NCBI GenBank assembly: GCA_018524725.1
Contig: JAEUWP010000335.1
Location: 744,001-808,000 of the forward strand
Direction of reading: 5' to 3'
DNA length: 64,000 bases
Source of the DNA: Podaxis mareebaensis
Lineage: Eukaryota > Basidiomycota > Agaricomycetes > Agaricales > Agaricaceae
Under the pieces are notes generated by a model, which saw only the letters and a program-made list of their open reading frames with translations, was not told where the DNA came from and searched no databases. The stretch's first letter is position 1. Every line of letters begins with the position of its first letter. Position numbers and translations under genes: made by a program. Positions 2,487 through 64,000 of this stretch are shown piece after piece.

Positions 2487-4127
2487 ATGCCAGAATTACC
2501 GGGTACGTCGGGTTCACCCTCGCCGACAGTGTGTATACGAGGTTACTATTACATTGCTAATGGATCAATGTTTCCTAGAAGTAGAACGAGCAACGCGGTT
2601 GCTCAACCAAATAGGAAGTGGCAAGAAAATCGTGAAGGTGGAGACAACGGAAGACACCATCGTGTACTCTGGCATAACTCATACAGGATTCGTGAGTCCG
2701 TCATTATCCGGTGAGGACCTCGTGATAATGTCCATGATAGGCCGAGTCTCTGACGGGACGCAGGATGGTTCAAGCACATAGATACGGTTGGTACTGTTCC
2801 AGCCAGACAACTGGAAGTTCGTATATGAATATCTTATAGGGAAAGTGTTCTATCTCGAACTGGATGGTGCTGAAAAACACCCAGTCATGCATTTCGGTAT
2901 GACAGGGATGCTTCACGTACGGGCCCAGCCATACCCTCAAATTATTCTAGGCCTGATAAGCAACTATTTTCCGATGGCCAGGTTAAGGGACAGCTTCCTA
3001 TGCACTATAGAGATGCTCCTTCCGACGCCACCGACCCCGAATGGCCGCCGCGGTGGATGAAGGTAAAGTAAATGACTCAATTCTAGCGAGGGTCTATCAA
3101 TCAAGCCCAACAGTTCATCTTGCATTTCATGGATCCTGAAGGCAACCAAAGAATTGAAGTTGCATTTCGGGACGCACGAAGGTTAGGCCGGATTCGTTTA
3201 TGTGCCTCTCCACTCTTGGAGCCACCGATATCTGGGCTTGGGTTCGATCCTATACATTCCATGCCAGCTCTCGCCGAGTTTTCGAAACTCATTGAGAGGC
3301 GTAAGGGGGCGACCATCAAAGCTCTATTATTGGATCAGTCATTCAGTGCTGGCGTCGGGAACTGGGTTGCTGGTGAGGACCTAGAGCCTTTCGCACGGCT
3401 GGATCCTTACGTTTGACGATTTTCAAGACGAAGTGTTGTACCACGCGCGTATACATCCTGAACAACGGTGCAATACGCTTTCGCAAGGTCAACTGCAGAC
3501 GCTACATGACAAAATTGTGTATGTATGTCAGACGGCGACCTCCGTCAATGCGGATGACAGCCAGTTTCCTGAGAACTGGCTTTTCAAACATCGCTGGGTG
3601 AGTTTCCTTACCCCAGTGGTTTCCTGACCTTCTGACGGTTTGCCAGGGCAAAGGCACCAAGAAGAATGCCCAAACGGTCCTAACCTTGGTGAGCCCACAG
3701 CGTCATGAATCTACAAACATTGACTATCTTGACTACATGGAAAGCCATCCGGTAAACCAGCAACAATTAAATGGGTCACTGTTGGTGGTCGAACGTCAGC
3801 TTATGTTTCAGAGTTACAAGAACTCCCAAGTCTCTCGACCACTGTCACTACGAAGACCGGAGTGAGAGCTCCTTTATTCCTAAAATGTCGTCTATTCGGT
3901 CACTCACTCCCTTACAACCATAGACTGAGGCGTTGGATAAATTTGGGCATCGGTCGTCGGATTTGCACTCTCTCGGAAAAGGGGTGCACCATATGCCGAG
4001 GAAAAAGCGCAAAGTTGATCGAGCTTGTGACGCGGAGGAGGTGGAGATTATCCCAGGACCTCGCGAGTCAGCCAAGCGCTCGGTCTCGACTCGTTCCCAG
4101 ACACGCGCTAAAAACCAAACGCAATGA
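2487..4127 (+). CDS. formamidopyrimidine-DNA glycosylase (Fpg/MutM-type, fungal)
   Basis: Base-excision-repair enzyme of the Fpg/Nei superfamily that removes oxidised purines and cleaves the abasic strand. The ATG at 2487 opens a 16-nt exon; removing the intron 2503-2578 (GTACGT...TAG) gives MPELPEVE, the family N-terminus whose proline 2 is the catalytic nucleophile. Further exons give GKVFYLELDG, HFGMTGMLHVR, RIEVAFRDARRLGRI and, across a GTGAGG intron, GNWVADEVLYHARIHPEQ, the helix-two-turn-helix region. The C-terminal part has VTVGGRTSAYV and no bacterial-style zinc finger, as is usual in plant and fungal Fpg. The last exon carries PRKKRKVD, a strong basic nuclear localisation signal, and ends NQTQ-stop. 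Convergent with the Utp5 gene, stop codons 61 bp apart. Very short first exon; about seven exons in all. Confidence 0.9.
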
Positions 4128-4188
4128 GGGACGCCAGAGATCTTCGACACATTGTGGTGCATTAAGTATAATCATTTATTCCGCGTGG

Positions 4189-6700
4189 TCACTCGCTCTC
4201 GTCTTCCTCTTCATCCTCGCTGTACTCCTCTGCTTCATCATCAATGAATTCATTCAATCCTGATCCATCAGAGTCTTCGCCCTCGTCATCTTCTTCACTC
4301 TCCTCTACTTCTTCCTCATCTTCGTCCTCTTCGCTATCCCCGCCGAGCTCCACATCCTCCACGCTTCCTTCATCATCGCCGACTTCAACCTCTATGTCCA
4401 TCTGCGCATTTTCATCGTCGCTGGATTCACTCTCACCCTCAACATATCGTTTCACGGCAGTTCCCTTCACAGTTGATGAAGTCTTGTCGTTCTTCGGTAC
4501 GAGCGGAGCTGGTGCAAGAGAAGACCGCATCTCGATTTGTGAGAGTACCATGTCCAGTCTTCCACTCAACGATAGAAGACTTTCCTGTAGGGCTAAGCGG
4601 GCGCTCAAGGTAGCGTGGAGACCGGAAAGACGGGCGACGAGGTCCGGGACCTATTAATTAATGTTAGACACACATTTAGTGTTTTCTCTTGTGGTAATGG
4701 CTGGGACTTGCCGTCATGAGGTGGCCCGTGTGGACGGCCAAGACCGTCCTAATCCAGGTAACTAGTGTCATACCGCGTTGAGCACTGGCCCCAGCCCCTC
4801 CACCTTTCATATTAGCAGCCCTTGCACCCCTTCCCAACCTTTCAACGCACGCGTTCAAGAGTGGAATAGCCAATTGCGCAGGTAATCTCCTGACAGTATT
4901 CTGGATTAAATTAGGATTTGAGTGCGCCAGACAGGTCTCGATGAGCCTCGTATCAGAGGAATGGAGTGCCTGAATGAGTGTACGTGTGAGGGAATCCGCG
5001 GGAATGACGTCTAATCCCGGTTTTGTTTTCTTGCTGGCTGATTTGGGCTTCGCCAGGCTGGTGGCACCTTCATCCTCGCTGTCCGAAGACCGATGCACAC
5101 CGGCGTCGTTTGCAGCAGCCAATCGTTGGCCCAGGGAGAGTTCCGCAAGATCAACGTCGAGATCCCCGTCTATATCTCGGACCGTGGTCTCGTCCATGCT
5201 CCCATCATGACCCAACTGGATTCCCGAGCCGACCGCGATGGCTGACTCGTTGTATCGCTTATTCTGGATAAGCTGTAAAGCAATTGGGTGAGCCTCCAAG
5301 TTCGAGACGGCATTCCGAGATGAAAAACGGATTCCTTACCGGTTGTGTGTCCTCAAGGGTCATTTCGGGGACGTCCTCCAGTTGTAAATTTTCAATGAAT
5401 TGGCCAATTTCATCCAGGTATCGCTACAGAGGACAAAGTTCCATGAGCCTGGTAATCCCGATGTCGTGGGGGAAAATGTTTTTTTACGTACCACAACGGT
5501 AAATACTGGTCGGACCCCTTGGACGAGTCGAGCCACACGGATCTTCCCATGTTCTCCGTCTACAAAAGATACATCAATTACGTGTGAAGGGGTGGATGAT
5601 TTTTTGGAAGCCGAGATGATGTTGGAGCGAGGGTGGAGGGTAGAAAGTTTAGCGGGAGAGCGATTTGAGCTGGTTGGAGAAGAGATGTGGTGAGGAACAG
5701 GGTATAATGCGATCTTGCCGGATGCCGAGAGAGTAACGAGGACCGGAGGATTGTCCGTGGAAGCCGAAAGGGAGAAGGATCTTGCGTCCGAGTCTAGGGG
5801 CACGGATGCGACAGCTCTCCCGTCCGTGTTAGGCGAGTCTGGGACATCCCATACATAGAGGAAGCGGTCCGTTTCCGCCATAGAAACGAATCTTGTAGGC
5901 AGTAGTTTTGAACGATCCCATTTCATGGACTTGACGGCCGAGGCATGACCAGTGAATGTCGCCAATTGCTGAAGCTTCTTGGGAATGATCCCTTCGGTCT
6001 CTGCAGGCTTTGACAACAACCGTATGCTGTGACTTGCAGCGAGCACATCCGTTCGATCTTCTTCGTCAAAGGGTCGTATGGTCAGCGACGCGTAAGGTAT
6101 CCGATCGCTGTTCTTCCAACTTCCCACAATTTCATTTTTGTTGACATCCCAAAGTCGAAGCGTGCCGTCTGCTCCAGAAGCCCATATCAACCACCGTCCC
6201 TTGCCCTCCTCGACTGCCATGGCCAAGATCGCAGATGTGCTGGATGCATGTGACAAAGTACGTAGCATACGACCGTGCGATGGCGAGAAGCAGAGTATCG
6301 TTCCGTCCGACAAGCCCAAAACCACAACCTCAGTTGCCTTACTGTCAGTTTCTAACCCAGCCGCGCTTTCCCTCTTCTTCCTTTTTTTCTTGCTTGGCTG
6401 GGATATATCATTTTTGTCCGCTTCTCCAAGGCCCAAAGCACTCCAGGTCACAGATGAGACGCGTGCACTGTCAACAATATGGTCTGCAACGGCTTGTCCT
6501 GTTGTTGTGTTGTAGATGCGTAGTCTGTGTTTGTCCACTGCGAGGGACACATACGCAAATAGGTCGCCCTTTGGAGAGAACGAGGATAAGGCGAACAGAC
6601 TCGAGATATCCTCTACCGCAGGTTGGGATATTAGTGCCGTGGACGCTGGCCTGCCTGATGGTGGTTTTGGGGTTTTCTTCGACTTTTTTGTTGTTGCCAT
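4189..6700 (-). CDS. UTP5: U3 snoRNP protein Utp5 (WD40 + Utp12 domain; WDR43 homologue)
   Basis: Nucleolar component of the t-UTP part of the small-subunit processome, acting in early 18S pre-rRNA transcription and processing. The large first exon (about 5360-6700) encodes an N-terminal WD40 beta-propeller with recognisable repeats (for example WASGADGTLRLWDVNKNEI and a later FLYVWDVPDS blade). Exon 2 (about 4676-5299) begins a Utp12 domain (EAHPIALQLIQNKRYNESAI, later LTRTLIQALHSSDTRLIETC), and the last exon (4189-4608) finishes that domain and ends in a roughly 80-residue Glu/Asp/Ser-rich acidic tail. The start is the ATG at 6698-6700 (MATTKKSKKTPK); an in-frame ATG 18 nt upstream (6716-6718) is possible but less like the family. 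Divergent from PHO85, with a shared 342-bp promoter region. Confidence 0.9.
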
Positions 6701-7042: not shown

Positions 7043-8339
7043 ATGAACTACATCCAGGTGAGCTTTCTAGAGATCCTAACGTGTACGCAATCCCTGAACT
7101 TCCTCGCTTTCAGCTGGAGAAACTAGGTCGGTCAAACTTGAAAGCCTGCACACTTCTAAGCTCAATTGACTGAATCATAGGCGAGGGAACCTATGCCAAC
7201 GTGTTCAAGGTTCGTGATGTCTTCGCACTTTTCCATACCTTCCCCATCTAATCCCAAGCTAGGGGCGGTCGCGGACGACAAACGAAATTGTGGCACTCAA
7301 GGAGATTCACTTGGATGCAGAGGAAGGGACGCCATCCACAGCAATTCGTGAGATCTCCTTGATGAAGGAGCTCAAGCATACCAACATCGTGCGCCTCCAC
7401 GATGTCATCCACAGCGAGACGAAGCTCGTCCTCATCTTCGAATTCTGCGAGCAAGATCTGAAGAAATATATGGATCAACATGGCGATCGTGGCGCTCTCG
7501 ACCCCAAAATCGTTCGCAGCTTCATGTACCAGCTTCTCAAAGGAACTGCCTTTTGTCATGAAAACCAAGTCCTACACCGCGACCTCAAACCTCAGAATCT
7601 GCTCATCAACCGCAAAGGCGAGCTCAAGCTTGGCGATTTTGGTCTTGCAAGGGCATTTGGTGTTCCAGTTAACACCTTCTCGAACGAGGTAAGAACGGCC
7701 ACTGTCATCAATACGCCGCATCGCCGGCTCATTCCATTTATGCGCTTAGGTCGTCACTCTCTGGTACCGGGCTCCTGATGTCCTCCTCGGTTCCCGAACA
7801 TATAGTACTTCAATCGATGTCTGGTCCTGCGGTTGTATTTTCGCTGAGATGATCTCGGGTGTTCCCCTCTTTCGTGGCCGGGACAACCAAGATCAATTAC
7901 TTCACATCATGCGCATTATTGGCACTCCAACTGATGAACAATTTGCCAAAATATTGAAAGACTCTGTACGTCAGAACTTGTTTGATTCTATGACATTCCA
8001 TTGATTCTGCCCAGCCTGAGATTACCATCAAACAATACCCGAGGTACCCAAAAATGAACCTCGCTCAGTTGCTCCCAAGAGCAGAACCGCTGGGTAAGCG
8101 TTGCAGCACGCTTTGTTACACCACGAACGTTCTGACGTCAAATACAAGCAATCGACCTCTTGGAGAAATTGTTGAAGTTTGACCCTGCAGAACGTTTATC
8201 TGCGTCTGAAGCGCTCCTCCATCCATATTTCACAAGCGTGGGTAATCCTACTGCCTACAACCCCACACCAGGCACCATGGGTCCACCGGCCTACAACTTC
8301 CCCCACCCTCATGGACACCAAGCTCAGCAACACATTCAA

Positions 8340-8374
<35 letters not shown>

Positions 8375-8567
8375 ACAGCAACATATACAGCAGCAGATGC
8401 AATATGGGCGTCAGCCTATAATGTATCCACCTCAGATGCCTCAACAGGTGTCAATTCCACATCAAATGCAACCTGCACCGGCTCGTGTTCATCCACAGGC
8501 AATGAACCCCCAAGCCTTCAACCCTGGATCCAATGTACCATACCCGGCGCCCTATCCAACCCGTTGA
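7043..8567 (+). CDS. PHO85: cyclin-dependent kinase Pho85 (CDK5-like)
   Basis: Serine/threonine kinase that pairs with Pcl-type cyclins in phosphate, glycogen, autophagy and cell-cycle control. Short N-terminal exons (MNYIQ, then LEKLG) splice to [10 protein letters not shown], the glycine loop. The exon from about 7260 gives [21 protein letters not shown] (catalytic Lys; the C-helix is the PSTAIRE variant STAIREIS), [10 protein letters not shown] with the catalytic Asp, and [19 protein letters not shown]. After an intron at about 7690-7749 comes [20 protein letters not shown] and [10 protein letters not shown]. The kinase fold ends at [15 protein letters not shown]-terminal tail of about 105 residues follows, rich in Pro, Gln and His, with a poly-Gln tract, and ends YPTR-stop. 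The tail is longer than in yeast Pho85. Confidence 0.93.
8338..8398 (+). repeat. CAG/CAA poly-glutamine repeat in PHO85
   Basis: A run of mixed CAG and CAA codons encodes about 20 nearly uninterrupted glutamines (one His-Ile break) in the C-terminal tail. Mixed codons suggest selection on the protein or an old tract rather than a pure expanding microsatellite. Confidence 0.9.
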
Positions 8568-9020
8568 TAACTGGTTTCTTTTTTTTTCTGTGTCTTTTCT
8601 TTCTGTGTCCCTTTGTCTCGGTTTGTTCGGACTTGTTATTTGTATTTTGGTTGCGTTTGAGACAATCGAAATATTCAGTACCATGAATTCGCGACGACCG
8701 CCAATAAGGGACCTTCCCGGGTTTTATCAGGGTGTACAAAAAGTATGGGGTCCGTTCTACACTTTTATGATACAAATACAACAAAGACAGCCCGACACAG
8801 ACAGCGTGTATACAGCGTGTATATATATATGATATAATACATTACCAAAAATAGGCGATTCTATCCTGAAGCCTGAAAACGTGTTTAAATCGAAGCTTGA
8901 AGATAACGGAAAGGCAGCACAAGGTGACAAGGTAAGGCGAATGAAATAGTTACAAGCTTCCTGGCACTTAACCAAACATCGAGAGTATGACGAGCAGATC
9001 ATCTAGCAAAGGGACATACA
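8568..9020. other. convergent intergenic region
   Basis: 453 bases between the PHO85 stop and the histidine-kinase stop. It holds T-rich 3'-UTR-like sequence (about 8575-8640) and a TATATATATATGATATA microsatellite at about 8820-8837. No gene recognised. Confidence 0.6.
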
Positions 9021-48735: not shown

Positions 48736-50527
48736 TCATGCGCGAGGGGTCAATTTCAGACGACAGCCATCTTTGGGGAAGATCGTCGCAATAATCCTGC
48801 AGAAGGGGTAAACACTCAGGCATTCCAAGCATCAATGAGACAACCACGTACTCGACTTTGTTGCTCAGTGGCGTGAGCTCGTGCTCAAAGTTCATCATGG
48901 CGACGGCAGTGGCCAATGCGAGGGCGATGTTCATTTGAGCGTATTCCAGACCAATGCATTTGTGAGGACCACTACCAAAAACAAGATAGTTTTTGGGATT
49001 CGAGTTGGCCAACCCCTTCTGATCAAGCCATCGTTCCGGATAGAATTTGTCGGGTTCCGGGTAGACTTCGGGATCGTGAAGAGAGTTATAGAATGACGGA
49101 ATGACTAAACTGCCGGATGGCACGGTATAATTATCTGTGATCGGGAAGGCCCTTTTGGCTTTGTATGGAACCTATCGGAAAAGGAAATAGATTTACTACA
49201 ACGAGAATTTCAATAACGGCCGGCAATACGTACCATGGTCACAGGTGGTTTGACGCGCATGCTTTCCTTTACGACGGCTTGCAGGTAAACCATATCGTCC
49301 ATCATTTCAAGTGTGATCGGATCCTCGTAATTGCCCATGCGGACGCGTTCCTGCTCCTCTCTGACCTTAGCGAGGACCTCGGGGTGATCAGCAAGGTGTT
49401 GGAAGCCGTAGATCAAACCACTGCTCATGGCGTCTTGAGAAGCGAAAAGGAAAGAGAAGACAACTTGGGCCATCTCGTAATCGCTGAAGTCCTTCCTGCC
49501 CTTGTAACCTGGTTCGGCCATGATGGACACCCATTCGTCCAGCATGCATTCTGGTTGACCACCTTCTGCCATAGCAATTTTGCTCTTGTGGGCGGCGAGT
49601 TGGAGCCAGTGCATCACTACCTTGCGGGCCTGGATAGCCTTGTAGACTTTGGTTCCCGGAAGGGGTATAGGGAAGTTGACGAGCTCGAGGGATTGGGTGA
49701 TGAACCAGTACTTGTCGTTGATTTCTTGCATGGCAGAGTCAGGGATGTGATAACCACAGAAGACGCGAAGAGAAGTTTCCATGTTGAGGTGACGGGCTGT
49801 CATCATGATGGGCTTAGCTGAAGGCTCCGCGGCTGCCTCCTTCAGCCATCGGGAAAAATGTTTGCGAGCGGTAAGTTCTTGTAGTCCCAAGTAGATTCTA
49901 CATCACATTAGTGAGATCCTGGAAAACACGGAGAGTACCCACCCAAGAGCCTTGCGAGTGAAAAGCAAGTTAAGAACTTTGCGGTAGTCAACGTGGTCCT
50001 TTCCTGTTAGAAAGACCCTATTGATGTTATTGAGTTCCTGCACAAGGTTACGGTGCATACGGAACTCACCAGTTATCAGAACCAATAACCTGTTTGCCGG
50101 AGTGGACTAAAGCAGGTTCAGCGTATGAAGGCGAGTTGAGTATCTTGCGCGAAAATTCATTTGAAGAGGCCATGACGATGAAACTATTGTAAGGTTACCA
50201 TACGATCAGACAATTTGTGGTATAGGTGACTTACATGTTAAAGACACTGACAACGCTGAGTGGTCCTGAGTCCCATTGTTTTTGGTAACCCTCCATCGAA
50301 GGAGACATCGAGTCGGCAAATCGTCCAATGACAGGAATTGTCCATTTATCTCCGGGAAGATGCCGTTTTTTGTACCGATAAACGCCTTGTTCCAGTGCGA
50401 GGAGACCACCTACAATTGCGAGAGTCGTGTAGAGCCATGTCAAGGTGCTGCCTTGGACGGTAGAGACAACATGAGACGAGGTAGCATTGTAGAGAGATGT
50501 TGAGGCAGCCTTGAACTCGAATGCCAT
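48736..50527 (-). CDS. ERG5: sterol C-22 desaturase, cytochrome P450 CYP61 (Erg5)
   Basis: ER-membrane P450 that introduces the C22(23) double bond in late ergosterol synthesis. The ATG at 50525-50527 gives an N-terminal TM anchor (WLYTTLAIVGGLLALEQGVY) and the hinge KRHLPGDKWTIPVIGRF. The I-helix region reads VFSFLFASQDAMSSGLIYGF, the CYP61 form; the K-helix E-x-x-R is in VKESMRVKPPV; PERF-like region FYPERWLD; the heme loop is FGSGPHKCIGLEYAQ with the Cys ligand. A final 55-nt GTACGT intron ends before the last exon and restores the family end IIATIFPKDGCRLKLTPRA-stop (stop at 48736-48738); reading through instead would give a foreign tail ending at 48722. About six exons. Azole and sterol control likely but not seen in sequence. 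Confidence 0.93.
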
Positions 50528-52116
50528 CTCGAAGAGGAAGCAGCAGACGTGGGCTCAGATACAACTGACCCACGGTCTACAAGTAATTTCCAGGATGACA
50601 CCACTCAGACACCATTTCTTTTTCTCCAGCCAATCATCGTGTGGGAATACCTTTCCTTGCCGAGCCCGCCTTCCCGCCCCTGCTCACAAATGTTATGCCG
50701 GCGGTCTTCATAGGTATCGTAAGGTTAGGTCCATTTTGTACTTCCACATCATTGTCCGACAGTTCTAAACTATTCCCAGTGAAGTATCCTTGGGTGGACT
50801 CCTACGTCACCTGAGAGCGTGCACCATTTCGTGAGCGATACATTGAGCTCCGGGCTGCGCCATATCGAATTGGTTAAGCTGGACATACATTGGGAAAACG
50901 TCCCCAACGCAGATGAGATGAGACCAAAGAGCAGAATGGGGTGCATTCAATGAGGTATGCCAATTTATGCCCTTTTAGCACGTACCCTGTGTCCTGTAAG
51001 GCTGTATCTGGTATGGACACCTTACGGAAACTGTTCTCTCGTGTACGATTCCTTCAGACCCTCTGCAGGGGTGACCAGAATCGTCAGAAACGTTCGGAGC
51101 CGAATTGGATCCGACGTGATAGTGATCCATGAACGGGCAGATACCGGAAGGATGCGGCATGGCAAGTCTTAGCACCGTCGCATCGGCGCGAGTCATAGGT
51201 ATTTTATGCGTGAGAAATCGAAATATTGAGAGGTTATCCCCGTGACACGGCCCCCCCCACAGGCCCCTTTGCCCCGCTCAGTGGTCCATTCAGTATTGTC
51301 CATGTTTGTATGATTTACGGGGATATAAAGAATGTCAGAGATAACCGAAATGAAGGGGAACAGGCAAAAACATGCCCCGAAGTCCGTGTTTGAGTCAGAA
51401 ATGATAAGCCGATCCCAGTACCAAAGAATCTGAAATAACCGCTAGCATCGTAGGACAGTGCAGTATTCATGTACTGCCATGTTAAGATCAGCCTAAACAT
51501 GAAGTCTCATTGCCAGATACTTGAGCAAGTCCAAACCCTATGGCTACCCAGACATCAGATGACTAATGGATGCATGTGTCCCTCCATTGTGTAGCTTACA
51601 CGAGTTCCCCACTGGAAGCTACTCCATACCTCCCCTTAATAAGGGACACATATGACTCGACGAATGTTGCTCTATGGACACCCATTGGGTGTCCATCAAG
51701 TATCGCAATCCTCATATAGTAATAAGGCCTTGATGCCATGCTTTGCAGACATATCTATGCCCAGGTGTCCTTTTCTTTTCTTCTCTGTTTCCAATAGTCT
51801 CTATACAGTTTCCCCTTAATATTATGCTCGTATTGTTCTTGAATTTCATAGAATAGTGGTCTAGATTCCAATATTTCATTGACCCACTGTTTTGCTACAT
51901 TCCTTGGATCCAGCTGACTTTTGCTTCAGTTTGGATCTGGCAGCCATCCTGGACATTGTGTGAATGCTTAGTATAGTCTGTATACACCCATGCATATATA
52001 TACAAGCTGTATTTTGTTGTTCTTCTAGAAATTGACCTCCCATCACATCTCTCAGCTACTCCTTTCCCTGTCTAAGAAGTCCAGCCTCAGTGTCATTGTA
52101 ACTCAAGCTATAGGTC
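50528..52116. other. intergenic region and transition into repeat-rich DNA
   Basis: 1.6 kb. The left part (to about 51240) has normal composition and includes the ERG5 promoter. A C-run CCCCCCCC at about 51249 is followed by sequence with progressively fewer CpGs. It includes a 21-bp inverted repeat (listed separately). No coding motif recognised. Confidence 0.5.
51675..51695. repeat. 21-bp perfect inverted repeat
   Basis: TGGACACCCA-T-TGGGTGTCCA: two perfect 10-bp arms with a 1-nt spacer. Further GTGTCC/GGACAC words lie nearby (about 51572, 51645, 51765). Could be part of a transposon end or a protein-binding palindrome; function unknown. Confidence 0.8.
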
Positions 52117-54644: not shown

Positions 54645-56982
54645 TTACAAGTCCATATCAGGATGAAGGTGTCCATCAGAGGAATCAGAAGAATAAGAGT
54701 TGGGAGATGAGGCAGAACTGGGAACAGTGAAGTTTCCTGCTAGAGGCATTGAGTCAGAAGAGTCTGACTCATGAAGGAAGATGAGACTGTGGTGTGGAGA
54801 AGATAACAATGATAACAACATGTTGGCAGTGACATATAGTGGTGGGTATGGAGGAGGATTGCTGATGGGTTCTTCTGAGTTTGACTCATTGATACCTGGA
54901 ATGTTGGAGTTGATGCTGCAGAGGGGCAGAAGCTGGGTGTGACAGGGAGGGATGGCTGGAGGGTTATCAGAGTTAGGATCAACATAGTAGACTTCTACTT
55001 CTCGAAAGTAGAATCTGTGGGTGACTTCATATTTGATAATGTGCAGGATGACCTTGGGTGGATACATCATATAAGGATGGAGGAATACTATTGGTTCTCC
55101 AGCATAAGGAATCATCTTCCAACCATGGGCCCAGGTGGAGTCAAAGTTATTATGGATTATTTGGACATATAACCCATTGGGATCGAAGACATGGGTGAAG
55201 GGAGCATTCTCCCAAGTGATGTATAATATTTCTGTCATCATGTGGTCAGTCTCATAGAAGATCAGTCCAGGCATTGGCCAGTCTTCAGAGAATAGGGAGA
55301 CATGGCCAGGAAGGTGATGGTTGGCAAATGCTTCATTACAGTAGCAAGTTGAGTCTTCAGCTGGTATGCCTGTATCTTGGGTGGTAGAATGAGAGGCATT
55401 GGGAAGTCCAAGCTTGTGGACTAGAGCATGATAAATGATGTTGTGACAGGTGGTACCAGGCTGGTTCATAACATTATCCCCTTCATTATTAGCAAGTTCT
55501 ATCTTGCTACTACTATCTGACACTGGTGTTGGATGGGAGGTAGGTGGTCTAGGATCTTCCACTTCTGATGTCAGAGAAGGGAGATTTGTGATGTCCATTA
55601 GTTGTGTGGAGGCATTCTGATCTCATTGGATGAGGGAGCAAATGCACGTAGTGGCTCTGCTGAGTAGGGTGTGTCATTCTCTGATGGATGTGGGGGAGGC
55701 TGAAGGTATAGGTATTGGAGTATGTAGTCTGCCTGTTTTGAGTGCTGATGATGTTGTCAGCAAGGGCAGAGATGGTGGCATTAATGGATTGGTGCAGTTG
55801 CACACTTGATGGACTTGGACTTTGGATATGGTGGGGAAGGTAGGGGGTTCCATTATAGTCCCTAGCTCATAGAGGTGATCAGGTGAGGTTACTTCCTCTG
55901 CATTGATCAGTATGTGGATACTACTGGTGTTGATTGGCCCCTTGTGGAAAAGTGTGTGAAGGGTGAAGTAATGGAGGAGGTCAGGCTGGGAGCAGGTGCC
56001 TAGGAGGAGTGATAGGTCAGCTAGAAGGGTGGCAGTTGCCCAAATCAGAAATGTCTGGCAGGGAGTCAGGACATCATTGTATTCTTTGATGTGGAGCCAC
56101 ATAGCAGCTTGCATTGGGAGATCATGACAGTAAAGCCTCAGTTCATGATGGAAGGCTAACATCTTGATGATGTTTAACACTTCTCTGAATTAGAGGCAAG
56201 ATATATGGACTTGGAGTTAAGGGAGTCCTGCTATGTAAGGCATGAGTCTCATGTAAAGTTGAATCAGGTTGTGGTTGTCAATCTGTTCATTGGGGAGATC
56301 TGGATAGTGGAGGATTCGAAAGAGAGCTAGCTCTGCTAAGTGCATTGAGTCATAAACTGACTTTATCAATGAGAAGTTTGGTGGTAGAGCTTGAGCTCTT
56401 GATGTCACTACATAGTTGAGGGGAGATGTTATGGCCAATACAAGCAAGTCAGGCCATCTCCATTGAGTTCAAAAGTTGAATGAGCATTCTAGCAGAATGC
56501 ATGATAGTAGTAATAGTTTCCCTGTAGACATTGCAGTTCTGAACCAAAAGTGGATTCCTTCAAAGAGCAGTGTCCTGGGTGATAGAGTTAACCCAGTCTA
56601 GAGATTCTCTGAGTCAAATGAGTTTGGTGTCAAGGTTGGATACTTCACTAGGGAGGGAAGGTAGTTCAATCAGGGATCCAGTGTTGATTAGCCAGATGAA
56701 TTCCCAGGTTCCAATGTGGGTTGAGTAGGCTGGGAGCAGGTGGAGGGGGTGCAAAATAAGGAAGGACACAGCATCCTGCACAATTGTGGTTGTCATGATG
56801 TGTTGTATGGCAAGGTGTTCTGTGATGGCATTCAAGTGTTCTTGGAAGGTGGTGGGTGTCTCAATGAGGGAAGGGATGCTATTAGGGTTGTGGCTAGTGC
56901 TTGTAGTAGTGTTGGGAGGTAATTGAGTATCTTGGTGAGCTTCAGTTTGAGTAGCAGGTTCTGGGGTATTGGTGGTTGACAT
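54645..56982 (-). pseudogene. element A downstream ORF of unknown function
   Basis: Begins with ATG at 56980-56982, 9 nt after the pol TAA, as MSTTNTPEPATQTEAHQD (open to 56614). A second frame then continues nearly open from about 56470 to 54645, broken only by a few stops (TGA or TAA at about 56217, 56195, 55671 and 55620): LPPNFSLIKSVYDSMHLAEL, LTPCQTFLIWATATLLADLS, and a last intact 317-codon part (MDITNLPSLTSEVEDPRP to HLHPDMDL) with Pro/Ser-rich ends and a Trp/Tyr-rich centre (FSEDWPMPGLIFYETDHMM). I recognise no domain, no zinc knuckle and no TM segment. Its position after pol is like env or a third ORF; joining of the two frames is uncertain. Confidence 0.55.
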
Positions 56983-59367: not shown

Positions 59368-60015
59368 TGTTATGTAGAGATGGTTTCTACACATCATCTC
59401 AGTGCAGAGAGATACTGTCCTAAGACAACCCAACACTATTAAGTTCCTGATGCAGAACACCCATCCATTCTCTAGAGAGAACTAGAGGCTGGTTGGAAAT
59501 CTTGCAGGGACTGCCTAGGGAGAGATATGACTTGTAAGGTCGCAGGCTACTCTGTAGGTTTAGCTATTACACCAGTTATCCTGTTGAGGCAGGTAGAGCT
59601 CTCACACAGCAAGAAGATAAAGCAGAAGACAGTCTTCACTATTCTTGTGCTATGTACAAATAATCATAAAGCTAAGTTCTACTTACTTTATGAGCTATCT
59701 AAATACAAGGGCAATTGCTATTCTACATGTCCTAAAGGAGAATCTTCATAGTTACTTCAGTACTCTAAGTATAGTAGACCAAGTCCAAAGTAAGATGAGA
59801 TCTACAGAAGGAGAGTTATTATTATCTATTGTATCACTGAGCCTGAGTGCTAAACATATCATGACTTCGGAAGATCTGAGATGTGACCAAAAGTCAAGAT
59901 GGAAGTTGAGTCAGGGTGGACACTTGGAGTCAGAAGGTGGGAAGGCAGTTAGAAACAGAGAGGGCAGAACTATGAGGAGAGCATGGATGATGACAGAAAC
60001 AAGAGGAGTGTAACA
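59368..60015 (-). repeat. 3' LTR of element B
   Basis: 648 bp bounded by TGTTATG (59368) and TGTAACA (60015) on the plus strand, that is 5'-TGTTACA...CATAACA-3' in element orientation: the TG...CA ends with TGTTA/TAACA inverted termini usual for Ty3/gypsy LTRs. On the right it directly adjoins a polypurine tract; on the left it abuts element A RT codons. The partner LTR is outside the window, so identity of the two copies cannot be checked here. Confidence 0.8.
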
Positions 60016-60027
60016 TCATCCCCTTTG
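60016..60027 (-). other. polypurine tract of element B
   Basis: On the minus strand ACAAAGGGGATGA immediately precedes the LTR (TGTTACA). This is the plus-strand primer site expected just upstream of a 3' LTR and fixes the element's orientation. Confidence 0.7.
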
Positions 60028-60049: not shown

Positions 60050-61687
60050 CTACCTATAACAGGTGTCAACCTCTGCAAGGTATTGCTTGGACTGGTTTTG
60101 GATAGGAACATTATTAGTGGTGATGTGTCGTCCTTCAGTCTGCTTCATGATAGGGTTGAAGGTATATTCGGTGGTGGTATTTTCTAACACTCCATGATTG
60201 CAAGGGATAGGTTGAGGGATAAGGGTAAAGGCATCTTCATATAGCATATTCTGTCATCCTCTTTGACTGAGAGTCAGAGCATTGGTAAGAAACTGAACAC
60301 ACTTCTTGGCTTCTTCATATGTAGGGCCATTGACAGGGGATTGGTATCGAGATGGAATGATGGGAGTCTGAGGATGTTGAATACACTGCCAAGAGTGGTG
60401 ATTTCATCCTTGACAGAATCGACACATATGATTGGGACAGTCGGAGGCAATATGCCCTACTCCTAGACAAAGCCAACAGCCTTGTGCATACACCTTGAGG
60501 AGATTGGGAGGAAGGAGTTTCGCGATGGTGAGAGGGAGCATTCATCATCAGATGTGGCATTCCCAGTTCGGATACTTGGAAAGGAGATTCATTTCTCCTT
60601 GAAGGGTCAAGATATTTACGAGGGTCAGTAGGTTCAGGTAGGTAGCGATGTCAGGCTTCTGTTCGACTGAAGCCTTAGCTTGAGACTGAAGGGTCTCTGG
60701 GACAAATGGATTGGTTCATGCTCAATGGGAGTAGGCTCTTCCCTCAGCAACAAGGATTCCTTGATCTCACTGGTACTGCCAGGGGTAGTTCTCTAATGTA
60801 ACTTGTGTTCTGCTTCCAGTATCTGTTGTACTGGACTCTCGAGACTGAGATACTCAATCCATCTCTGCGTGTTGGGCATGAGTGGAGGAGGAGGGGTTTG
60901 AGGAGGAAGAGTGTGCCATGGCATGCTTGCTTCCATACTGTTGTTGGAGTGAGGCAATGAAGGCAGGGGTCTCTGCAGTTGAGGTGGCAGTGAGGAAGGT
61001 ACACGCTTGTCTGATGAGATTCTTCATGTATTGGACCTGATGCTGGGTTTGATACTGTGAGGCAACATTGTAGAGGGGTTGTGTTGCTTGGGTAGCTGCA
61101 TCTTGGAAATTAAACTATAGCTCGTCTTCTGGCTCTGGAGCTGGTGGGTTCCAGCTTCTCAGGTCTGTGAGTACATCGGCTGCACTTGGATAACCAGCAG
61201 CCTGGGTGAGGGAGGTAGTGGTCTGGTAAACATTACTTGAGGGGTTATATGGACTGGAGATATTGGATGGATTTCCAGATGTTCATGAGTCCAGCACTTG
61301 ATGGTGTTGTCCTGATGGATTACAATCTGGGTTCCATTGGGGAGCAGTGGCAAGGGCTTATCGAAGGAAATTCTGATATTTTTCATCTTCCGGAACAGTC
61401 ATTGCGTGGTTTGGAAGACTGGCATGTAATGGATCAGTGGTAGGTGTTGTAGATGTTGGATGAGAGTATATATGCTGGTGGAATGGGTTAGTACTAGTGA
61501 TTGGGGATGGTTTGCTCTGGATGGTAGTGAACTCAAGGTGGTCTGAGGGAGATGTCGTGATATAGTCACTGTCAGATCCTCTGGTCAGAGAGTCTCCATG
61601 GAGGAGCTCTATGAAGCTTTCCGTTCTGGACATTGCTGGCTTGATGGCAGCATAATCATTGACAGAGAAGGAACTAGCATTTGACAT
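60050..61687 (-). pseudogene. element B second ORF: Gag-like protein with two CCHC zinc knuckles, downstream of pol
   Basis: ATG at 61685-61687 (MSNASSFSVNDYAAIKP), overlapping the pol stop by 14 bp. The first frame runs to 61358; the reading frame then shifts, and a later frame reads QYMKNLIRQACTFLTATST (about 61000) and continues through stops to SKYPNWECHI near 60570, three TGA codons, and LLPPNLLKVYAQGCWLCLGV. Zinc knuckle 1 is CWLCLGVGHIASDC; knuckle 2 is CRFC-Q-G-stop-NHHSWQC; both are C-x2-C-x4-H-x4-C, the nucleocapsid type (about 60390-60470). It ends at a TAG at 60050-60052, about 20 bp before the polypurine tract. Ser/Pro/Thr-rich in its first half. Broken by indels and TGA stops. 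A Gag-like protein at this place, after pol, is unusual. Confidence 0.65.
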
Positions 61688-64000
61688 GAGTGGGTTTGGG
61701 AATGGTGAATTTCTGGAATGGAGGAATGAAATGTCTCTTCTTATATTCTACCAAGATTTTTGAAGTGTTTCTTGTCAGGTTTTCTTCATCTTCCCAAGTG
61801 TTGTCCGAATTCAGATAACCTTTCCAGTGGACAAGATAGGCAGTTCGGCTTCAGTGAATTCTGTGGTTAATAATAGATTCAATTTCATACTCTTCTTCTC
61901 TGTCTATTAATTCTGGTTGAGAAGGTTCAGGTTTGGAGATATTCTGGTCAGTCTTCTTGTATTGTTTCAAGAGAGAGACATGGAATGTGGGGTGAAGCTT
62001 CCATGCAGTGGGAAGGGTGAGTTTGTATGCGAGTAGTCCTTTTTGTTTCTTGATGGTGAAGGGGCCATATCTTCTAGGATGAATCTTTGCTTTCTGTTCC
62101 TGCAGTGGGAGGTTCCTAGCATCTAACCAAACTTTGTCACCTCTCTCATACATCTCAGTTTGAGGTGTTCTTCGGGTGATCATTTGTTTAGTGTTTTTTT
62201 TCATGACTTCTGTGGCATTGCATTGGGATTGATCTATATCAAATAATCATTCATTTGATGCAGGGGCATTGGTTCAGATGAGGAGTTTGGGAATAGGAGG
62301 GGGGTTGTATCCATAGAGAAGCTCGAATGGTGTCTTCTCATTTCCTGCATGTATAGTTGAGTTATACTTATATTCAAAGTGTGATAATTTGTCAGCCCAT
62401 GACTTGGGATCTTTGTAGCAGTACTTCGATAGGTATACTTCAAGTTCTTGATGTGAGTGTTCTGTGGCTCCATCTGATTGAGGGTGGTAAGCAGTGGATA
62501 GTTGTAAATCGATTCCTAGGGCGGAATAAAATACTTTAGCAGCTTTCCCTGCCCATCATAGATCTTGATCTGCTATGATTGAAGTGGGAATTCCATAGCA
62601 TGGATAGAAGTGCTTTGTCAGCAATGTGGCTATGTCTTCAAAGGTCACTGTTTTTGTAGTTGGTAGTACTAGTATCCCTTTTGTAAGTCTGCAGTCCACT
62701 ACAGACAATATAGCATCATAGCCTTCAGTGGTCTCAGGTAGACCTGTGACAAGGTCCATGGACACGTCTGTGAAGGGACGTAATGATGGTGATGGCTCCA
62801 AGGGGTGAAGAGAAGGGTGATTGGGTCTTCTGTCAATATTAAATTGTTGACAGATATGGCAGCCTGTAACATAATTTCGGATGAAGTCTCAAAGGCCTGG
62901 CCAATCAGTTTCTGTGTGGACTCAGTGAATTGTTTTGTCAATGCCTGGATGTCCTGCTGAGTGATGATCATGATGTCTTGCAAGGATTTCGCATTTTTCA
63001 TCTAACGATGGTTGTGGTGTGGGAGATGATTGTGATGCAGTCTGGAGTGATGGTGATGGAGGTGGTGTACCATCTGCTGTGATAGCATCAATGAAGAGTT
63101 CTTTCAGAAGGAGGACTCTGTTGAGGTTCTCTTTTGACTTGTCAACTTCATGGTCTGGTTGTCTAGAGAGTGCATCAGTGACTGGTATTGCCTTGGCTGG
63201 ATAATGTTTGATGCGGAATTTGTATTCCTGTAATTCAACCCAGGTTCGGACGTGTCATTTCAATAGTTTTCTGGCATCTTGCCAGTGTCAGAGGTTGTCA
63301 TGGTCTAATCGAACTTCAATTTCATAGGGAGTGGAATGTAGGTAGTGGTGCCATTCATCAAAGACTTGCTTGATTGCCAGGAGTTCCTTATCAGGTGTGG
63401 TGTAGTTTCGCTCTGTTGGGGTTAATGACTTTGATCAGAATGCACATGGGTGTTCATTTCCATTGTCATCTTTTTGGATAAGTACTCCACCAGTGGCATA
63501 ATCAGAAGCATCGGTCTTGATGATGAAGGGTCTAGACATATCTGGTGTATGAAGAAGGGGTTCTCTTTGGAAGGTCTCCTTCAAAGCTGTGAAGGCTTGT
63601 TCTGCAGCATCGTTCCATTCAAAGTTCTGGTTCTTTCAGAGGAGTGCATTGAGAGGGGCACATAGGTGGGAATAGTGATGTATGAATTTCCTATAAAAGT
63701 TAGCAAAGCCTATGAATTTCTGTACATCTTGGACACATTTCAGTCTAGGCCAATCTTTGATACCAGCCAGTTTGTCTTTTGACATTCTGATTTGATTATG
63801 AGAAATGTTCATCCCAAGATATTTGACAGATGTCTGTTTGAATTTGCATTTCTTGGGTTTGACATAGAGATCATTCTCTCTTAGCCTCTTCAGAACTTCA
63901 CAAGTTTCTTTTTGCAAAGAAGAGAGGTCATCAGAGAAAATAAGGATATCATCCATGTAGACAATGACCACAGTGTATCTGGGCTTGTCTATCAGGTCAC
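61674..64000 (-). pseudogene. element B pol: RT - RNase H - integrase - chromodomain (5' end off window, broken)
   Basis: Enters at the right edge as DLIDKPRYTVVIVYMDDILIFS: the RT YMDD motif at about 63949-63960. Then KPKKCKFKQTSVKYLG, FIGFANFYRKFIHHYS, RNase H (NFEWNDAAEQAFTALKE, TERNYTTPDKELLAIKQ, TDALSRQPDHEVD near 63150-63180), the integrase zinc region (RNYVTGCHICQQFNIDRRP), core D,D,E (SMDLVTGLPETTEGYD; IADQDL; DGATEHSHQELEVYL) and PFTIKKQKGLLAYKL / HPTFHVSLL. The C-terminal chromodomain (about 61740-61890) reads EYEIESIINHRIH-stop-SRTAYLVHWKGYLNSDNTWED. It ends ...PKPTHVKC-TAG at 61674-61676. TGA codons at about 63635, 63435, 63285, 63255, 62890 and elsewhere stand where context suggests Arg. 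Confidence 0.87.

Follow-up and report, generated by a model that had tools for sequence, protein, structure and literature searches.

A third gene with paired zinc knuckles behind pol in a Podaxis mareebaensis chromovirus, and its possible role in handling element RNA

We analyzed a 64,000-nucleotide (nt) stretch of the Podaxis mareebaensis genome (contig C246:744001-808000 of the assembly, GenBank JAEUWP010000335.1; hereafter the window) and found that a long terminal repeat (LTR) retrotransposon within it, element B, belongs to the Ty3/gypsy chromoviruses and has, in addition to gag and pol, a third gene behind pol, an open reading frame (ORF) designated ORF2. The product of ORF2 is an accessory protein of about 545 residues, separate from Gag, with two tandem CCHC zinc knuckles, and we put the probability that it plays an RNA-handling role, most likely acting on element RNA, at roughly 0.6. 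The usual Ty3/gypsy element manages with Gag and Pol. A conserved third protein with its own knuckle pair suggests that several chromovirus lineages of this fungus have retained a second nucleic-acid handler.

All copies compared come from one genome, a 37-Mb assembly of 429 contigs. An earlier note, made from the window sequence, had given the order of element B as pol, chromodomain, ORF2, polypurine tract and 3' LTR, with two tandem CCHC knuckles in ORF2; reading the minus strand confirmed both the order and the knuckles (60478-60437 and 60424-60383). ORF2 begins with an ATG at 61687 and ends with a TAG at 60052-60050. The features of the element in the window are as follows.

61674 to 64000, minus strand: pol of element B (reverse transcriptase (RT), RNase H, integrase), broken and continuing beyond the window end; from the sequence and Pfam
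61680 to 62246, minus strand: C-terminal end of the pol integrase with the chromodomain; supported by Pfam on sister copy L012
61674 to 61687, minus strand: 14 nt shared by the start of ORF2 (ATG) and the end of pol (stop TAG), ATGTCAAATGCTAG; from the sequence
60050 to 61687, minus strand: ORF2, the gene behind pol, a decayed frame of about 545 codons with 12 stops; from the sequence and the copy alignment
60053 to 60617, minus strand: conserved half of ORF2 including the knuckles, under purifying selection (positions 8300-8862 of copy L010), with relatives in families C and D
60437 to 60478, minus strand: zinc knuckle 1, CWLCLGVGHIASDC; from the sequence, with a strict match in 11/12 sister copies
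60383 to 60424, minus strand: zinc knuckle 2, CRFCQG*NHHSWQC, interrupted by an in-frame TGA; present in 12/12 sister copies, with stops inside it in 5
60016 to 60026, minus strand: polypurine tract AAAGGGGATGA, directly 5' of the 3' LTR; read in the sequence
59368 to 60015, minus strand: 3' LTR (TGTTAC...ATAACA), its ends read in the sequence; LTR copies scored in the genome, n=40

The window copy of ORF2 is not open, with 12 stops in 541 codons (alignment row L026), as might be expected of a chance open frame or of a separate insertion peculiar to this copy. Matches to ORF2 DNA were nevertheless found at 79-100% identity in 40/40 scored candidates (40 scored of 71 first-look candidates), and copy L035 retains an uninterrupted ORF2. 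ORF2 adjoins the 3' LTR in the 12 fetched copies that have two LTRs in one direction; it is therefore not a separately inserted element, an origin that the earlier note had named as fatal to its proposal. Stops in ORF2 across the genome copies are mostly TGA, the pattern expected if CGA decays by C-to-T change in CpG.

To measure selection, we aligned 39 copies against the reference copy L010 (32 gap-free, 7 gapped and two clearly partial). Variants in the knuckle half (L010 8300-8862), counted as transversions plus non-CpG transitions, fell 37/23/152 at codon positions 1/2/3. Replacement changes there amounted to 0.43 of the expectation from context-matched shuffles, with 0/3000 shuffles as low, while the ratios in the other two frames were 1.12 and 1.20. 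For non-CpG transitions taken by themselves, the replacement ratio was 0.39 in the knuckle half, 0.46 in pol and 0.54 in gag (20 ORF2 copies; 15 each for gag and pol). The first 332 nt of ORF2 (~110 codons) showed no clear selection (variants 32/28/30). Because the knuckle half is under frame-specific purifying selection, and because diverged chromovirus families also carry ORF2 after pol (see below), we conclude that element B has a genuine third gene in ORF2. Its equal position in dozens of copies, the selection on one frame, the open copy and the diverged homologues together refute a chance frame or a private insertion, to which we leave next to no probability.

Searching the genome at the protein level with a 222-residue query from the knuckle half gave 97 matches, of which 28 had 32-41% identity. 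In family C (L049 on C323), gag contains CIVCGSKNHWARQC, pol is interrupted by one stop and the chromodomain region matches that of B; after pol comes an ORF2 with knuckles CWKCRAVGHIAFQC and CRFCPRASHYSWHC that ends ~32 nt upstream of the 3' LTR. The LTRs of this element are 389 bp long and 98.5% identical. The ORF2 start and the pol stop overlap by 14 nt in family C also (ATGCCTCTCAGTAA), and the corresponding motif of element B, ATGTCAAATGCTAG, was found in 15 of the 20 copies searched. Family D (L053 on C108) has a gag with CFFCKKKGHFYRQC, a stop-free pol frame of 1152 codons and, further downstream and without overlap of pol, an ORF2 with CWNCRTTGHLAYQC and CRFCRGNGHYSWKC; no direct repeat was seen in L053 within the fetched stretch, which did not take in the LTR pair. 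By BLASTP, the ORF2 proteins are 31% identical between B and C (E = 1e-36), 29% between B and D (E = 9e-45) and 39% between C and D (E = 3e-60), and the corresponding values for pol are 54%, 42% and 43%. ORF2 and pol thus rank the three families differently, which hints at exchange, or at rapid change in B. The pol of family D is 73% identical to an Agaricus bisporus protein, so relatives of ORF2, and of the frames X and Y described below, may exist in that species.

The earlier note had offered a relocated gag as one explanation of ORF2, and had proposed looking beyond position 64000 for a 5' gag. Element B does have one: a gag homologue of the same copy (L026) lies just outside the window, at ~65495-67609 in window numbering, and matches the L010 gag region at 84% identity over 2127 nt. 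The contig extends 3.8 kb beyond the window, and the 5' LTR of this copy would fall past the contig end. A 5' gag knuckle of the type CITCG...HW..SC precedes pol in 12/12 sister copies, with a stop inside it in 2. As a separate 5' gag with its own knuckle exists, we rejected ORF2 as a relocated gag. A second Gag, arisen by duplication or relocation of gag, would share the CCHC knuckles that are the hallmark of Gag nucleocapsid, and 17 residues are indeed common to gag and the second knuckle gene of family D (called X2). Against such an origin, ORF2 has no BLASTP similarity to the element's own gag except short chance pieces and no Pfam match to a Gag capsid domain (a test at the level of sequence), and its knuckles are internal, with ~110 conserved residues C-terminal to them. 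We consider a second Gag improbable.

The remainder of element B is that of a Ty3/gypsy chromovirus. Pfam domains on the L010 pol follow the order protease-RT-RNase H-integrase, with the protease match under its cut-off; the integrase core is weak in copy L015. The chromodomain at the integrase end matches Chromo PF00385 at E = 5.3e-17 in sister copy L012, and Retrotrans_gag is matched in B only at E = 0.05. Same-direction LTR pairs occur in 12/19 fetched loci, with a matched length of 570-650 bp, and 5-bp target duplications are present at 7/7 sister copies (LTR pairs displayed and judged by eye). Among the best 120 of 1395 pol relatives, those with organism names belong to mushroom-forming fungi (Agaricus, Candolleomyces, Moniliophthora, Phellinidium and Dentipellis); the search with pol found no relative in viral contigs.

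CCHC pairs bind single-stranded nucleic acid, and with two such knuckles ORF2 is predicted to bind RNA or single-stranded DNA. We propose that it would bind the element's own RNA and so aid the export of this RNA from the nucleus, its packaging or its reverse transcription; translation of ORF2 in B and C would probably follow that of pol, through re-initiation or frameshift at the 14-nt overlap. Of the earlier note's alternatives, a second nucleic-acid-binding protein is the one that the paired knuckles, the selection and the diverged post-pol relatives support, the binding itself being a prediction. Several results weigh against this RNA-handling role. The zf-CCHC (PF00098) scores of ORF2 are 15.7 in B, 19.5 in C and 19.3 in D, below the curated cut-off of 20.8, so that the profile search suggested in the earlier note yielded a subthreshold knuckle match and, in Pfam, no Gag capsid domain. 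Among solved structures, the ORF2 of D matches retroviral Gag and nucleocapsid weakly (E = 0.01-0.1) and that of B matches Gag-type knuckles at E = 0.71 or worse; the best solved match of B is a TPR-like protein, aligned outside the knuckles over 47 residues (E = 6.5e-4), a match that we take as a composition effect. In addition, a related chromovirus family, A, has another ORF in place of ORF2 and lives without it.

No homologue of the ORF2 of B was found among ~5.8 billion proteins, at E 1 with one copy or at E 10 with a four-row alignment, and the protein-database searches with this ORF2 gave no source for a captured gene, another origin raised in the earlier note; the only queries there were the ORF2 and pol of B. 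ORF2, X and Y match no Pfam or NCBIfam family other than zf-CCHC.

Two other roles were weighed against RNA handling. Zinc knuckles can also bind DNA, and ORF2 might therefore be a DNA-side factor, its knuckles serving in integration targeting, chromatin tethering or counter-silencing. For plant Retand elements, DNA binding has been predicted for a protein encoded after pol (PMC11963269). However, the pol of element B already has a chromodomain for targeting, and between a DNA-side role and RNA handling the sequence itself favors neither; on balance we regard the former as rather unlikely. The position after pol would also suit an env-like gene. ORF2 has no transmembrane-like stretch, as judged by 19-residue hydropathy only (best mean 1.16 for B and 0.49 for C and D), and no envelope domain in Pfam, and carries knuckles instead; on these grounds the env-like candidate was rejected, and we give it a very slight chance.

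For an RNA-handling ORF2, the nearest functional precedent is CERV of the Caenorhabditis elegans element Cer1, a post-pol protein required for nuclear export of genomic RNA, in which a Cys-rich loop is important (PMC10309623). As the available text describes it, Cer1 is likewise a Ty3/gypsy element with a large non-envelope ORF between pol and the 3' LTR, and CERV has a Cys-rich loop, a possible zinc finger, and acts on genomic RNA. CERV differs in having a candidate C4 finger where ORF2 has a CCHC pair and in being made from a spliced mRNA, and the two are likened by description only. Some fungal chromoviruses carry an "additional ORF with unknown function" (PMC2864245). From what is available of that source, they resemble element B in being Ty3/gypsy elements with a chromodomain, in having an extra ORF in some cases and in the CCHC of some Gag proteins; unlike element B, they have mostly one or two ORFs, and the main text gives no place or content for the extra ORF and makes no mention of a double-knuckle post-pol protein. 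Searches of the open-licence literature listed no paper that, by title or abstract start, reports fungal chromoviruses with a CCHC protein behind pol. Whether ORF2 acts in RNA export, packaging or integration becomes a testable question in a group whose post-pol ORF is drawn, in the available part of PMC2864245, as of unknown function. Bdelloid rotifer LTR retrotransposons also have diverse post-pol genes, gained by several lineages, although their ORF3 proteins are of envelope, GDSL esterase or DEDDy exonuclease types, with zinc or CCHC unmentioned in the available text (PMC5408684). Plant elements, including Retand, have extra ORFs between pol and the 3' LTR, one with a possible DNA-binding domain, but Retand is not a chromovirus, many of the ORFs are antisense, and zinc or CCHC is likewise absent from the portion at hand (PMC11963269).

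Family D has a further pair of genes or candidate genes. Between pol and ORF2 of L053 (C108:6500-13900) lie two long same-strand frames, X and Y. X (4136-5413) contains CRLCSQVGHFQTQC and then CIHCKCSTPGHFSKFC, the latter not a strict CCHC, and its zf-CCHC score of 23.4 is over the cut-off of 20.8; its knuckle part has weak similarity to ORF2 (E = 7e-6 to 0.01). Y (4122-5393) spans 423 codons in frame +1 relative to X and continues the pol frame directly past the pol stop. In L053, X has TGA codons at 4763 and 5207, and the former is common to all three copies compared, which counts against X as a gene. In copy C70 (C70:883-2151), both frames are open, over 437 codons around the X match and over 423 codons in Y. 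Synonymous-codon shuffling of X gave a mean of 7.2 expected Y stops versus 0 observed (0/10000), and shuffling of Y gave a mean of 13.9 expected X stops versus 2 observed (0/10000). Control shuffles gave no signal for frame +1 of D pol, D ORF2, C pol or C ORF2, while D gag +1 gave P = 0.01 and frame +2 of C pol, D ORF2 and B ORF2 gave P = 0.03-0.05, indicating that the test has a mild background. Over 4136-4766, Y is constrained (non-CpG ratio 0.30 in L054 and 0.81 in L055) and X is not (1.24 and 1.03). Over 4766-5209, the knuckle part, these two copies pooled showed mild constraint on both frames, with ratios of 0.91 for X (P = 0.045), 0.89 for Y (P = 0.016) and 0.77 for changes that replace in both frames (P = 0.001). 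Given the shuffle results and the selection across the frames, Y is very likely coding; X is supported by its open length, its Cys-His cluster and the mild selection signal in its second half. It is a tentative possibility that a family of double-knuckle proteins that handle RNA, with a role like that of Rev or CERV elsewhere, is common to at least three chromovirus lineages and has perhaps been exchanged between them, and that X of family D, a second double-knuckle gene, is overprinted over nearly its full length by the +1 frame Y as a nested dual-coding pair. If both are translated, X and Y would exemplify how a gene arises by overprinting, in a transposon whose many copies can be studied. 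A 169-codon open +1 frame over family D gag (L053 119-628) also exceeds its shuffle expectation (P = 0.001-0.004).

Dual coding is also suspected within the ORF2 of B, where it is unproven. The suspicion arises from constraint at codon position 2 only, a depletion of double-replacement changes and a stop-poor +1 frame. Over L010 7560-8297 (window about 61355-60618), non-CpG variants fall 57/24/54 and 44/15/41 in the two halves, and fewer changes than expected are replacements in both frames (P = 0.003 and 0/3000). The +1 frame stops at 8297 in 39/39 copies, earlier positions being never stopped in half the copies. Other results count against dual coding. An open +1 frame this long has P = 0.05-0.07 by synonymous shuffle and 0.015-0.03 by whole-codon shuffle. 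Fourfold sites in this region are less variable than in the knuckle half, yet not below parts of pol. The second ATG of ORF2 is ACG in several copies. The +1 frames of the B and C ORF2 have no similarity to each other, and that of C ends earlier.

We also counted ORF2 and other post-pol genes behind integrases across the genome. Ninety-two of the 97 ORF2-domain matches entered the neighborhood count, and 56 of them had an integrase/chromodomain match upstream on the same strand within 3.5 kb, with gaps near 600-700 nt (6 loci), 1000 nt (36), 1900 nt (13) and 2400 nt (1); the remaining 36 are unsorted, some being contig ends or fragments. In the reverse direction, we took 136 scored integrase matches (of 323 candidates), a few of which belong to one element, and compared them with partial lists of 55 ORF2 loci, 20 group E matches, 21/32 Y matches and 38/46 A-ORF matches. 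Behind these integrases stood ORF2 in 56 cases (13 of these also with the Y of family D), Y without ORF2 in 5, a group E knuckle stretch in 19, an A-type ORF in 31 and none of these in 25. A knuckle-type gene thus follows 80/136 integrase matches, 24 of them on weaker evidence (5 by Y alone, 19 by group E). Group E consists of weak matches to X (~35-115 residues, E = 5e-6 to 7e-4), of which 21/25 lie 797-884 nt behind an integrase of a hand-picked list; one of the 21 is the ORF2 of family C. This knuckle-like stretch, known from matches alone, occurs ~800 nt after integrase at 20 places, including on C14, C17, C38, C81, C101 and C180.

Element A carries a long ORF of its own behind pol that lacks CCHC knuckles (window 54645-56982, minus strand; also in L028 and L029), a stretch of which has 46 matches in the genome; one 324-residue piece of it, compared with ORF2, showed no similarity. 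Since family A carries a different post-pol ORF, ORF2 is not universal: the earlier note had asked whether relatives always have it after pol, and it was found behind 56/136 integrase matches and is absent from that place in family A. Element B is inserted into the RT region of this element A, with the other flank of the insertion off the contig; element A in the window starts at the point equivalent to position 3672 of sister copy L028. Elsewhere in the window, the minus strand has an open frame at 50231-50554 that, by eye and with no search made, we take to resemble the N-terminal part of an ERG5-like sterol C-22 desaturase of fungi.
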